The translations under genes and the position numbers were made by a program. A stretch of 64,000 bases of DNA from Methylomagnum ishizawai (lineage in GTDB: Bacteria; Pseudomonadota; Gammaproteobacteria; Methylococcales; Methylomonadaceae), in the NCBI GenBank assembly GCA_945861705.1, contig CAMAVM010000009.1, forward strand, positions 1 through 64,000. The letters run 5' to 3'. Positions 57,978 through 62,357 of the stretch are shown one piece after another. Under the pieces are notes generated by a model. The model was given only the letters and a program-made list of their open reading frames with translations, did not search any database and had not been told where the DNA came from. How positions within the stretch are numbered: the first letter of the stretch is position 1; each line of letters starts with the position of its first letter.

Positions 57978-59435
57978 ATGAAATTCATTACCCCTCGTAT
58001 TATTTTAGCGTTGGTGCTGGTCGTCTTCCCTGTTACCTATCAGGCTGAACTTAATACTAAGATTGTCTTGCCCGATATGGGCGATTCTTCCGGTACTATC
58101 ATTACTCCCGCAGAAGAAAAGGAATTAGGCGAATATTTTTTCAGGAGCCTGCATTCCCAAATTACCATCAACCAAGATGCGGAAATTCAGGAATATATCC
58201 AAACCATCGGTCAAAAATTGGTGGCTAACAGTGACGGCCCTAGTTTGCCCTTCCATTTTTTTGTCGTGTTGGAAAACGACATCAACGCGTTTGCAGGACC
58301 AGGCGGCTATATTGGCGTTAATTCGGGTTTGATCGTCTTGACCGAAGCGGAAAGCGAACTGGCTTCGGTGATGGCACACGAAATTGCTCACGTCACCCAG
58401 AGGCATTTGTATCGTGCCGCAGAAGCTGCTGGGCGGCTTTCAGTGCCTACAATGGCAGCAACCCTGGCGGCGATACTGTTGGGTACACAATCACCCGCCT
58501 TGGGGCAAGCGGCAATAATGGCGATTATGGGTAGCAGCGTACAATTCCAGATTGATTTTACCCGTGAAAACGAAATGGAAGCAGATCGTGTGGGTATGCA
58601 AACTTTGCAAGAAGCCAGATACGACCCCCGCAGTATGCCGACGTTCTTTGAACGCTTGCAACAGTCCAGCCGCTATTATGGCAAGGATGTGCCGGAGTTT
58701 TTACGGACACATCCGGTCACTGCATCGCGTATCTCCGATACTCGTGGACGGGCAGAAACCTATCCATACAGACAATATCCAGATTCCTTAAGCTATCAAT
58801 TAATCCGTGCGAAACTCAAGGTTTTAGCCAGTAATGACGATGCTGCAACGACAAAACAGTTTCAATCTGGCTTAACACAAGGGACAAGTGAGCAACGGAC
58901 TGTCGCACGATACGGCACGGGTTTGGTGGCGCTTAAAGCGCAAAGATACAGTGAAGCGGAATCGATTTTTCAGCAATTAGCAAAACAAAATCCAGGGCAA
59001 TCGCACTATGCAAATGCGCTTGCGCGTACCGCCCTTGAGTCCAAAAATTATCGGCTTGCGTTAGCGCGGTATCAGCAACTCACCGAGCAATTTCCCAGTA
59101 ACGAAGCCATTAAGCTTGAATATATTACCGCTTTGGTGCGGTCTGGGGATTCTGTTACCGCCAAGAAGAATTTATCTGCTTTGCCTTATAAAACCCAAAG
59201 TCTTCCGGTTTATTATGAATTGATGGCGCAAGTCTATAACGATCTAAAACAATCCGCAGAATCCCATCGTTATTTGGCGGAATACTATTATGCGATGGGG
59301 CAAATTCAGGATGCGATCTTCCAGATCAGGTTGGCACAGCAATCAAAAGGGCTTAATCCGCAGTTGAGGGCTATACTTAGAGGAAGGCATGATTTCTTTT
59401 TGAACGAGCAAATTGAAGCCAGACGCGAGCAATAA
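57978..59435 (+). CDS. M48 family metalloprotease, BepA-like, with C-terminal TPR
   Basis: A 485-residue periplasmic protease. A signal peptide (residues 1-22) is followed by an M48 catalytic domain with HEIAH at residues 134-138 and a third ligand in FTRENEMEADRVGM; the C-terminal half is made of TPR repeats (SEAESIFQQLAKQNPGQSHYANALARTAL). This is the layout of BepA/YfgC, which controls outer-membrane protein assembly and LptD quality. The gene is complete and probably co-expressed with the TPR lipoprotein. Confidence 0.9.
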   Translation: MKFITPRIILALVLVVFPVTYQAELNTKIVLPDMGDSSGTIITPAEEKELGEYFFRSLHSQITINQDAEIQEYIQTIGQKLVANSDGPSLPFHFFVVLENDINAFAGPGGYIGVNSGLIVLTEAESELASVMAHEIAHVTQRHLYRAAEAAGRLSVPTMAATLAAILLGTQSPALGQAAIMAIMGSSVQFQIDFTRENEMEADRVGMQTLQEARYDPRSMPTFFERLQQSSRYYGKDVPEFLRTHPVTASRISDTRGRAETYPYRQYPDSLSYQLIRAKLKVLASNDDAATTKQFQSGLTQGTSEQRTVARYGTGLVALKAQRYSEAESIFQQLAKQNPGQSHYANALARTALESKNYRLALARYQQLTEQFPSNEAIKLEYITALVRSGDSVTAKKNLSALPYKTQSLPVYYELMAQVYNDLKQSAESHRYLAEYYYAMGQIQDAIFQIRLAQQSKGLNPQLRAILRGRHDFFLNEQIEARREQ

Positions 59436-59595
59436 ACAGTTAACACTTTCCTGAACCTAAGCTTAACAGGATCGTTTTTAGGTCAGCCTCTGCTTACAAA
59501 TTTAATAGATAACGATTTATCACCATTTGTAACTAACTGTAATAAAAAGTGATTTTTAAGGAAGTGTTAATTATTTTAAAAAATGACTTTTTTTG
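59436..59595. other. AT-rich gap downstream of the BepA-like gene
   Basis: No gene is seen here. TTAACACTTTCCT (59442-59454) has a near-inverted copy, AGGAAGTGTTAA (59560-59571), about 105 bases away, and CTGAACCTAA faces TTAGGTCAG, which may form a weak terminator for the protease gene. Confidence 0.4.
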
Positions 59596-59624
59596 TTGGA
59601 CAAGAGCGTTTTTTCAGATATACA
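59596..59624 (+). promoter_or_regulatory. strong-looking sigma70 promoter of the candidate RNA
   Basis: TTGGAC (59596-59601) and TATACA (59619-59624) are separated by exactly 17 bases, a near-ideal sigma70 pair. The start of transcription would fall near 59629-59632, just where a folded RNA domain begins and with no open reading frame behind it. Confidence 0.6.
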
Positions 59625-59628
59625 ATAG

Positions 59629-59815
59629 CCCCAGCTTTTCGGAGCGATGCCGGTTTAACCGTCGGTATAGAGGGGGAAATAGCCTTTTAGGCTATTGATA
59701 TATAACAATAATAAAAAAGTAATTCTGCTTGAGTTGAGTTGTGCAGGCGACACACAGTACAACGAAATAATAACTATAATAAAACTCAACATGCCCACTT
59801 TATGTGGGCTTTTTA
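59629..59815 (+). ncRNA. candidate structured small RNA, about 185 nt
   Basis: The transcript would begin with a three-way junction. CCCC (59629-59632) pairs with GGGG (within 59672-59676) and encloses two hairpins: GCUU-UUCG-GAGC (59634-59645) and AUGCCG/CGGUAU (59647-59668). A further stem, AAUAGCCU/AGGCUAUU, follows at 59678-59696, and GUUGAGUU (59733-59740) can pair with AACUCAAC (59783-59790). It ends in the terminator at 59793-59815. No conserved protein lies in it. Promoter, several stems and terminator together make a real RNA gene likely. I cannot assign it to a known family. Confidence 0.6.
59793..59815 (+). terminator. Rho-independent terminator of the candidate RNA
   Basis: GCCCAC-TTTAT-GTGGGC is a GC-rich six-base-pair stem directly followed by TTTTTA. 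This is the clearest intrinsic terminator in the window. Positions 59816-59973 hold no gene. Confidence 0.85.
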
Positions 59816-59973
59816 TTGCCTGTTGGTTTTGTAAAAAAGCCTTTAACCCCTGCCATTTCAAGCAGACTGCTATAACTGCAAGTTACTTAACTAGCAGTAT
59901 ATTTCATTCCATTATTAAATGACCTCATTAGATTTTCAATTTAATACGCCTGAAAATTAAATCCACGAATAAC

Positions 59974-60369
59974 CTACTTAACAAAGCATTGTTTTTCTGC
60001 ATAAGCCTCAGCTTCTTTCAGTTGTTTCCGTAAATCTTTGGATTGCTGAGGATCGCGGAACACGCCACCAGCCTCGCCAGGCGTACTTTTTAACATTGAG
60101 AAAGTCCTGGCTGCTTCGTAATCAGCAAAACTGAGTTTTCCAGCGATATTATCTATTTTGCAGCCACACGCATACTGGGTGATGAAGGTGAGTCCACCGT
60201 GCTGGGCTACGCAATTTAAGACGTATTCGACACGATCACGGGTGGGGTAGTCGTTCGTTTTCACGGCGGCTTGCACTTGTTCAGGTGCTTTTTCTGGGAT
60301 TGTGGTGCAGCCGATTAATGTAAATACCGTAACCAAGCTAAACATTAGAGATTTGTTGTGTGTTTTCAT
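59974..60369 (-). CDS. cysteine-rich lipoprotein of unknown function
   Basis: A 131-residue lipoprotein with a lipobox LIGC at residues 18-21. The mature part keeps four more cysteines (LNCVAQHGG, YACGCKI and KQCFVK), which could pair or hold a metal. A helical tail follows. I do not recognise the family. It is on the minus strand downstream of the DUF302 gene, with 46 bases between them. Confidence 0.65.
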   Translation of the reverse strand: MKTHNKSLMFSLVTVFTLIGCTTIPEKAPEQVQAAVKTNDYPTRDRVEYVLNCVAQHGGLTFITQYACGCKIDNIAGKLSFADYEAARTFSMLKSTPGEAGGVFRDPQQSKDLRKQLKEAEAYAEKQCFVK

Positions 60370-60415: not shown

Positions 60416-60871
60416 TTATTCTTCCGCCGCAAAATCGACAATTTTTTTCAAAACCTGGTTCATTTTAACCGAAAACGCATCCAATGCTTTGTTGTCGGTG
60501 TCCGTGGGCAACAAATGAGTCCTGACGATGGTCTTATCTTGAAATTGGTAGGCGATTACATTGCAGGGCATGTGCCTGATGGCCTGTGGGGACATCAACA
60601 GTATGGTTTTGGCTTCGGTCAGGTTACAAAACTGGATGGTGTCGTATTCGGGGAAATTTTTGGTGCCACGGTCACGGATCACTTTGCCAACGCGGCTATG
60701 TCCGGTTATCCTGAAATTGTTTTCGGCGATGGCGATTTCAAGTTCCGCCAACACATCATCGTAAGGTTTGTGCGTTTCTACCTGATAATAAGACACAAAC
60801 TCACCTGCTGGTTGGGTAGCGCAGCCTGCAAAAAACAATAAGCTTGCGAAAATGATACAACGTGCAATCAT
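60416..60871 (-). CDS. DUF302 domain lipoprotein
   Basis: The start is set at ATG 60871 so that the product begins with a lipoprotein signal (MIARCIIFASLLFFAGC, lipobox FAGC); 17 codons upstream are also open. The remaining 130 residues resemble DUF302: YDDVLAELEIAIAENNFRITGHSRVG, EYDTIQFCNLTEAKTILLM and MPCNVIAYQFQDKTIVRTHLLP. Two cysteines in the domain are conserved in many members. The function is unknown. It is divergent from mobA with 39 bases between starts. Confidence 0.8.
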   Translation of the reverse strand: MIARCIIFASLLFFAGCATQPAGEFVSYYQVETHKPYDDVLAELEIAIAENNFRITGHSRVGKVIRDRGTKNFPEYDTIQFCNLTEAKTILLMSPQAIRHMPCNVIAYQFQDKTIVRTHLLPTDTDNKALDAFSVKMNQVLKKIVDFAAEE

Positions 60872-60910
60872 CTTACTAACACTCGTTAAATAGAAGCAGA
60901 GCTTAACATT

Positions 60911-61507
60911 ATGGACATGCAAACAAAAGTGACGGGCGTGATTCTTGCGGGAGGGCTTGCTCGGCGCATGAATAATCAGGACAAAGGCTTAATCAGCTTT
61001 AAAGGCCAGCCGATGGTGAGTTATGCCATTGCTGCAATGAGTACGATTGCAGGCCAAACTATCATCAATGCCAACCGAAATATCGTCGAATACCAGCAAT
61101 TTGGGTTACCAGTTGTCAGCGACCAAACAAACAATTTTGATGGCCCACTGGCAGGCGTATTGACGGCGATGCTATTTGCAGAAACGGGCGTATTGCTGGT
61201 CATGCCGTGCGACTCGCCCTTAGTTAAGGCGGGGCATCTGCAAAAATTGCTATCAACACGTGCAGAAAACGATGCCGATGTTGCGGTGGCCTTTGACGGT
61301 GAACGCTTGCACCCGGTTTTTTTGGCGATAAAAACGACATTAAGATCCAGCCTGCAAGAGTATTTGCTCAGTGGACAACGCAAAATCGACCTTTGGCTAG
61401 CACAACACAAAATGGTCAAAGCCGATTTCAGTGCCGAGCCGGAGATTTTTGTCAATATCAACACCCTAACGGAATTATCCGATTTAGAGGCGCAAGATGA
61501 AGGGTAG
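60911..61507 (+). CDS. mobA: molybdenum cofactor guanylyltransferase
   Basis: A 198-residue MobA. The nucleotide-binding loop VILAGGLARRMNNQDKGLISFKGQPM is at residues 10-35, with MPCDSPLV for metal binding and INTLTELSDLE near the end. It adds GMP to molybdopterin to make the bis-MGD form used by formate dehydrogenase and nitrate reductase. It overlaps fdhD by 11 bases, so the pair is dedicated to the formate dehydrogenase cofactor. Confidence 0.95.
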   Translation: MDMQTKVTGVILAGGLARRMNNQDKGLISFKGQPMVSYAIAAMSTIAGQTIINANRNIVEYQQFGLPVVSDQTNNFDGPLAGVLTAMLFAETGVLLVMPCDSPLVKAGHLQKLLSTRAENDADVAVAFDGERLHPVFLAIKTTLRSSLQEYLLSGQRKIDLWLAQHKMVKADFSAEPEIFVNINTLTELSDLEAQDEG

Positions 61508-62357
61508 GGCGCATCAATCAGGCCGACCAGAATCCTATCAACCCGACATGACCAACGCCGGGCTGGCTTTTTCCATGACTACGGTTGCCGTCGATGAAAA
61601 TGGAGAACCCCGTGATATAGAGCTGGTCGGGGAACGGGCATTGACCCTTTACGTCGATAAACAGGAAATAGTCACCTTAATGACGATGGGTACGCATCCC
61701 GAACTGTTAACCTTAGGCTATCTAAAAAACCAAGGCTTTTTCGACAATATCGGCGATATCAAAATAGTGCAGGTTGATTGGGCTACCGAAGCCGTAGCCG
61801 TTGTTACCCAACATCAAAATGAACAACTGGCAGAACAATTGACCCAGCAAATGGCACAACGTACCGTTACCACAGGTTGTGGGCAAGGCACGGTATTTGG
61901 CAAATTGCTGGAAAAACTGCAAGCCATCAAAATTCCAGCTTACGCCATCAAGCAATCCACGCTTTACGGCATGTTGGATGCGTTAAAAAACTATAACGAA
62001 GTGTATAAAACTGCCGGTGCGGTGCATGGTTGCGCTTTATGCAGCGGCACGAACATCGACTTTTTTATTGAAGACGTGGGCAGGCATAACGCCGTTGATG
62101 CCATCGCGGGTTATATGTGGCTGAACAATATTTCCGGTGACAATAAGATATTTTATACGACAGGCCGCCTGACTTCGGAAATGGTGATTAAGGTCTCGCA
62201 AATGGGCATACCCGTATTGCTGTCGCGTTCCGGTGCAACCCAAATGGGCCTGGAAATGGCGAAACAATCGGGCATCACGCTTATTTCACGCGCAAAAGGC
62301 AAACATTTTCTGGTGTTGAATGGCGTTGAGAATGTTGAGTTTGATGGAGCCGTCTGA
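61497..62357 (+). CDS. fdhD: formate dehydrogenase accessory sulfurtransferase
   Basis: A 286-residue FdhD. The active-site cysteines are C179 and C182 in the HGCALCSG loop; FFIEDVGRHNAVDAIAGY and IFYTTGRLTSEMV are further hallmarks. It passes sulfur from a cysteine desulfurase to the Mo-bis-MGD of formate dehydrogenase. In methylotrophs formate dehydrogenase completes C1 oxidation to CO2. It follows mobA with an 11-base overlap. The formate dehydrogenase genes themselves are not in the window. Confidence 0.96.
   Translation: MKGRAHQSGRPESYQPDMTNAGLAFSMTTVAVDENGEPRDIELVGERALTLYVDKQEIVTLMTMGTHPELLTLGYLKNQGFFDNIGDIKIVQVDWATEAVAVVTQHQNEQLAEQLTQQMAQRTVTTGCGQGTVFGKLLEKLQAIKIPAYAIKQSTLYGMLDALKNYNEVYKTAGAVHGCALCSGTNIDFFIEDVGRHNAVDAIAGYMWLNNISGDNKIFYTTGRLTSEMVIKVSQMGIPVLLSRSGATQMGLEMAKQSGITLISRAKGKHFLVLNGVENVEFDGAV

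Follow-up and report, generated by a model that had tools for sequence, protein, structure and literature searches.

Class II sRNAs engage both faces of Hfq, following the ARN code of the distal face and offering a U-tail to the proximal face (PMC9037510). CrcZ binds the distal face of Hfq with its A-rich stretches, and crcZ is transcribed from an RpoN promoter with CbrB (PMC4063720). The RNA gene described here shares with the class II Hfq-dependent sRNAs of the ChiX type its (ARN)n tracts, a U-rich tail after an intrinsic terminator, a promoter of its own and an intergenic location, but differs from them in having two tracts parted by hairpins, a longer and more structured body and a conserved motif of purines instead of pyrimidines; it has no sequence match in Rfam, and its dependence on Hfq is putative. 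With CrcZ, CrcY and CrcX of Pseudomonas and Azotobacter it has in common recurring AANAANAA-type tracts that lie open between hairpins and several paralogues in some genomes, but it is half as long, has fewer tracts, a sigma-70 instead of an RpoN promoter and a conserved purine motif, with no CbrB link or dedicated Crc seen. Like CsrB, RsmY and RsmZ, it would be a stand-alone structured regulatory RNA with GGA at some unpaired places, whereas GGA is not enriched in it, the sites are few and conserved A-rich tracts are present instead.

A small RNA gene with its own promoter and terminator

The window analysed, 64,000 nucleotides of contig CAMAVM010000009.1, belongs to the 2.45 Mb draft genome (92% complete) of a gammaproteobacterial methanotroph. 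Direct reading of its sequence places at 59597-59817 (+) a promoter, a folded non-coding RNA of ~183 bases and an intrinsic terminator. An earlier note on this DNA had proposed here a new structured small RNA gene of no known class; covariation, order-wide homologues with promoter and terminator, and the lack of any Rfam match for the window all support this proposal. The locus and its neighbours comprise the following features:

57978-59435, + strand: bepA-like M48 peptidase gene, upstream neighbour of the RNA gene
59597-59602, + strand: -35 element TGGACA, conserved in relatives (TAGACA/TGGACA)
59621-59626, + strand: -10 element TACAAT, conserved in relatives (TATAgAAT/TTTAGACT)
59633-59817, + strand: small RNA, from the predicted start to the terminator T-tract
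59634-59645, + strand: P1 hairpin GCUU-UUCG-GAGC, 5' end of the RNA (fold and covariation)
59647-59668, + strand: P2 hairpin, 6/6 modelled pairs changed on both sides in relatives (covariation)
59670-59677, + strand: purine motif GAGGGGGA (GAGGRGGR across the order), the most conserved unpaired element that is not A-rich
59678-59696, + strand: P3 hairpin (fold and covariation)
59704-59717, + strand: A-rich tract 1, AACAATAATAAAAA, AAN repeats of the Hfq distal-face type
59717-59730, + strand: P4 hairpin AAGUA-AUUC-UGCUU (covariation)
59729-59735, + strand: P5 long-range stem, 5' strand UUGAGUU, two bases contested with P4
59738-59763, + strand: P6 hairpin GUUGUGC...GUACAAC, enclosed by P5 (fold and covariation)
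59766-59784, + strand: A-rich tract 2, AATAATAACTATAATAAAA
59783-59789, + strand: P5 long-range stem, 3' strand AACUCAA
59793-59817, + strand: intrinsic terminator GCCCAC-UUUAU-GUGGGC-UUUUUAUU (DNA GCCCAC-TTTAT-GTGGGC-TTTTTATT)
59974-60369, - strand: small lipoprotein-like ORF, downstream neighbour of the RNA gene

The promoter had been read as TTGGAC (59596-59601) and TATACA (59619-59624), 17 bases apart; both hexamers are present, but relatives conserve a slightly shifted pair, TGGACA/TACAAT, with a spacing of 18. Of 73 homologues, 70 are preceded by a -35-like T[AGT]GAC[AGT], where shuffles would give ~10, and this conservation shows the promoter to be the RNA gene's own, sigma-70-type by its elements. 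From the spacing of the conserved pair, transcription would start near A59633, so that the RNA would begin directly with the P1 hairpin. At the other end, the strong intrinsic terminator described in the earlier note is indeed present, and its T-tract is conserved among homologues. Most homologues in the family remain conserved past the T-tract (59810-59822, TTTTTATTGCCTG), and the reason is not apparent.

As the earlier note had suggested from the window alone, the RNA does not seem to encode a protein: 47 of 73 homologues, that of the window included, lack any ORF of at least 20 codons inside the RNA and no positionally conserved ORF was found among the remaining ones, and a small protein was rejected on this ground. 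An own promoter, an intrinsic terminator, the lack of a protein product and a conserved structure, the general features of trans-acting sRNA genes, are thus found together at this locus.

Conserved secondary structure

A 186-base stretch folds at -46.8 kcal/mol (z -2.5), and its minimum-energy fold contains the UUCG hairpin, the second hairpin and the long-range stem that had been predicted, as well as a third hairpin. The proposed three-way junction did not hold: its closing helix (CCCC 59629-59632/GGGG 59672-59675) is not conserved, being found mainly in close relatives, and does not covary (2 two-sided cells versus 2.0 expected); it probably lies upstream of the transcription start.

A lack of covarying stems across relatives had been named in advance as evidence against the RNA, and the signal is strong. 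Seven helices carry compensatory changes, each helix including pairs in which both sides have changed. The structure-fitted alignments, which lean towards the model and are compared with shuffles that ignore relatedness, contained 236 two-sided cells versus 74.8 shuffled (56 sequences) and 244 versus 71.5 (78 sequences, three of them chance-match rows), and the signal was lost when partner columns were slid by one to three positions. In a plain MAFFT alignment based on sequence only, 89% of the cells of a hand-drawn structure pair, and 27 changes are two-sided, compared with 10.8 in shuffles. The consensus reads cCAgCUUnanRGAR - P2 - GAGGRGGR - P3 - AUAAYAAYAAYAAA - P4 in the 5' part, followed in the 3' part by P5 enclosing P6 and a second tract, AUAAYAAnAAUAAUAA, and then by GCCCGCuUYauGCGGGC-UUUU. 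The sequence of P5 varies by lineage (GAGU/ACUC, GUUCA/UGAAC and CGUCC/GGACG, as judged by eye) and still encloses the second A-rich tract.

Distribution and genomic setting

When 201 genomes of the family were searched at the DNA level, 137 gave matches, ~30 of them spanning most of the RNA and several including the promoter. The covariance model search over Methylococcales that the earlier note had suggested extended this picture, recovering homologues with promoter and terminator across the order. Of 201 genomes of the order, 151 gave a match to model R1, built from 29 sequences, with nearly every family sampled represented; model R2, built from 56 diverse sequences, detected the RNA in 169 of 201 Methylococcales genomes of at least 90% completeness (42 of the 48 genera sampled). 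In the window, both models match 59628-59813, R1 with a score of 191 bits. Outside the order, each model matched 3 of 366 other genomes of the class, weakly (E about 6e-4 for R1); on direct reading, the three R2 matches proved to be common terminators of the GCCCGC type, preceded by coding or AT-rich sequence. The sole weak second match in the window genome is likewise a terminator, after ilvC (gene name assigned by eye). The exact 3'-end pattern was not found in viral contigs, where exact matches only were sought for a possible phage origin.

Comparative sequence analysis therefore indicates that this is a genuine, conserved gene of a small, folded non-coding RNA, retained throughout Methylococcales evolution. 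The family is new; the kind of RNA is already known. Rfam 15 scans of the window and of 20 diverse loci yielded no family above gathering score, barring rRNA genes adjoining one copy. No such family was found in the methanotroph sRNA literature searched, with most subscription journals and supplements outside that search, nor did any sRNA family described for Methylococcales come up there, and the main text of three large ncRNA surveys does not mention Methylococcales.

The bepA gene is constantly found upstream of the RNA only in the family of the window. In four other families of the order its genomic position is different, and the RNA gene, beside other neighbours, keeps its promoter and terminator. 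Since the linkage is limited to one family, an element of bepA was rejected. In the window, a sequence resembling a terminator of the bepA-like gene (59436-59480, TCCTGAACCTAAGCTTAACAGGATCGTTTTT) would part this gene from the RNA gene. Downstream of the RNA gene are found a DUF302 protein (60416-60922, -) and mobA-like and fdhD-like ORFs for molybdenum cofactor/formate dehydrogenase (60911-62357, assigned by eye). At four loci of other families (L058, L063, L064 and L096), the RNA gene is divergent from a gene related to an ABC substrate-binding protein of the type found in PQQ-dependent alcohol dehydrogenase systems (TIGR03863, score below cut-off).

A-rich tracts, purine motif and probable mode of action

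At least two separated AANAANAA tracts occur in 70 of 73 homologues, compared with 2.9% of dinucleotide shuffles, and overlapping AANAANAA sites average 6.0 per RNA versus 0.41 in such shuffles. Folding predicts these A-rich tracts to be 87% unpaired in the ensemble. Both sequence hallmarks of class II sRNAs, an (ARN)n motif and a U-rich 3' end, are found. With AAN repeats matching the ARN code of the distal face and the U-rich 3' end matching the proximal face, we infer binding to Hfq; the retention of AT-rich spacers might in principle also have other causes, for example S1 binding or RNase E sites. An Hfq gene is found in 17 of 17 complete relatives and in the window genome, whose Hfq passes the NCBIfam Hfq cut-off and has F at the position of E. 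coli Y25.

Likewise invariant is the purine motif, with GAGG[AG]G occurring 1.04 times per RNA versus 0.06 in shuffles. It is not unusually open in single-sequence folding (0.48 unpaired versus a mean of 0.50), and among known sRNA seeds, C/U-rich ones outnumber purine-rich ones.

We consider it rather probable that the gene encodes a free-standing Hfq-dependent regulatory sRNA of class II-like type whose purine motif pairs with targets. The RNA of ~183 bases would be transcribed from its own sigma-70-type promoter, ended by the intrinsic terminator, and would offer Hfq two single-stranded tracts of AAN repeats for its distal face and a 3' end rich in U for its proximal face. Held by Hfq through tracts and tail, it would pair by GAGGRGGR, located between P2 and P3, with pyrimidine-rich stretches of target mRNAs, thereby altering their translation or stability; Hfq sponging may come as a side effect or be what the RNA mainly does. 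The main rival is a decoy of the CrcZ/CrcY kind, in which Hfq is titrated by the two AAN tracts, so that mRNAs repressed by Hfq are released without any need for a pairing seed. The tracts are of the same sequence kind as the A-rich stretches of CrcZ, almost every homologue has two of them, and some genera have paralogous copies. We nevertheless regard such a decoy as unlikely: there are two tracts in ~183 bases versus six in 407, the promoter is sigma-70-type and not the RpoN promoter with CbrB of crcZ, and the CrcZ model of Rfam gave no match at gathering or E<=10. No Crc-specific gene was found in the 92%-complete window genome, whose sole Exo_endo_phos protein is closer to the solved exodeoxyribonuclease 2jc5 than to Crc. 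A pure sponge would not need the purine motif and leaves the strongly conserved GAGGRGGR, P1 and P2 unexplained, which favours the class II-like pairing sRNA.

Sponging of CsrA/RsmA in the manner of CsrB/RsmY, through the GGA in P1 and in the purine motif, appears very unlikely. CsrA is present in 15 of 17 complete relatives and GGA does lie within the motif, but with only 2-3 copies per RNA it is not enriched over shuffles (2.85 versus 2.64; ANGGA 0.78 versus 0.85, below them), the P1 copy is missing in several clades, and the many GGA motifs in loops typical of the CsrB/RsmZ family are not found. GAGGAGG is also a near-perfect complement of the usual 16S anti-Shine-Dalgarno sequence, so that the RNA might face the ribosome, with the conserved motif acting as a Shine-Dalgarno mimic beside A/U-rich single strands that engages the 30S subunit without a start codon; the tolerance of A-to-G changes (GAGGGGGA) in the clade of the window and the lack of a conserved ORF after the motif make this reading just as improbable as CsrA sponging. 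Least credible of all is that there is no separate RNA and the sequence belongs to the bepA-like gene as an attenuator or 3' UTR element, serves a neighbour as its leader, or is a small mRNA. The gene does follow bepA in the family of the window, but it has its own conserved promoter, persists in other families where bepA lies elsewhere, is followed in the window by a gene on the opposite strand and contains no conserved ORF.

A more specific possibility, to which we give little credence, is a core regulator particular to Methylococcales in which the strict GAGGRGGR beside Hfq-bound AAN tracts would pair with pyrimidine-rich mRNA leaders or mimic a Shine-Dalgarno sequence on the 30S subunit; we know of no sRNA family working by such an arrangement. 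More generally, as it is built like RNAs that work with Hfq and is kept order-wide, the RNA is a good candidate for a core regulator in methane-oxidising Methylococcales, and its retention across almost all genera of the order suggests that it likely regulates something central. Much of the methane that is oxidised biologically in lakes, wetlands and seas is consumed by these bacteria, which also find use in biotechnology. Promoter, structure, A-rich tracts and purine motif are sufficiently well defined to allow deletion, mutation and pull-down.

Paralogues

In several Methylococcales genera the RNA has paralogues that end in a GCCCAC terminator; one large genus shows 2-8 matches in each genome. 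In nine paralogue loci (L104-L107, L109-L112 and L114), a palindrome, TGYGACAnnnTGTCRCA, is found just upstream of the promoter, ~40-60 bases from the RNA. It is absent from the window and from main-type loci, and the paralogue that bears it is therefore probably under the control of a transcription factor.
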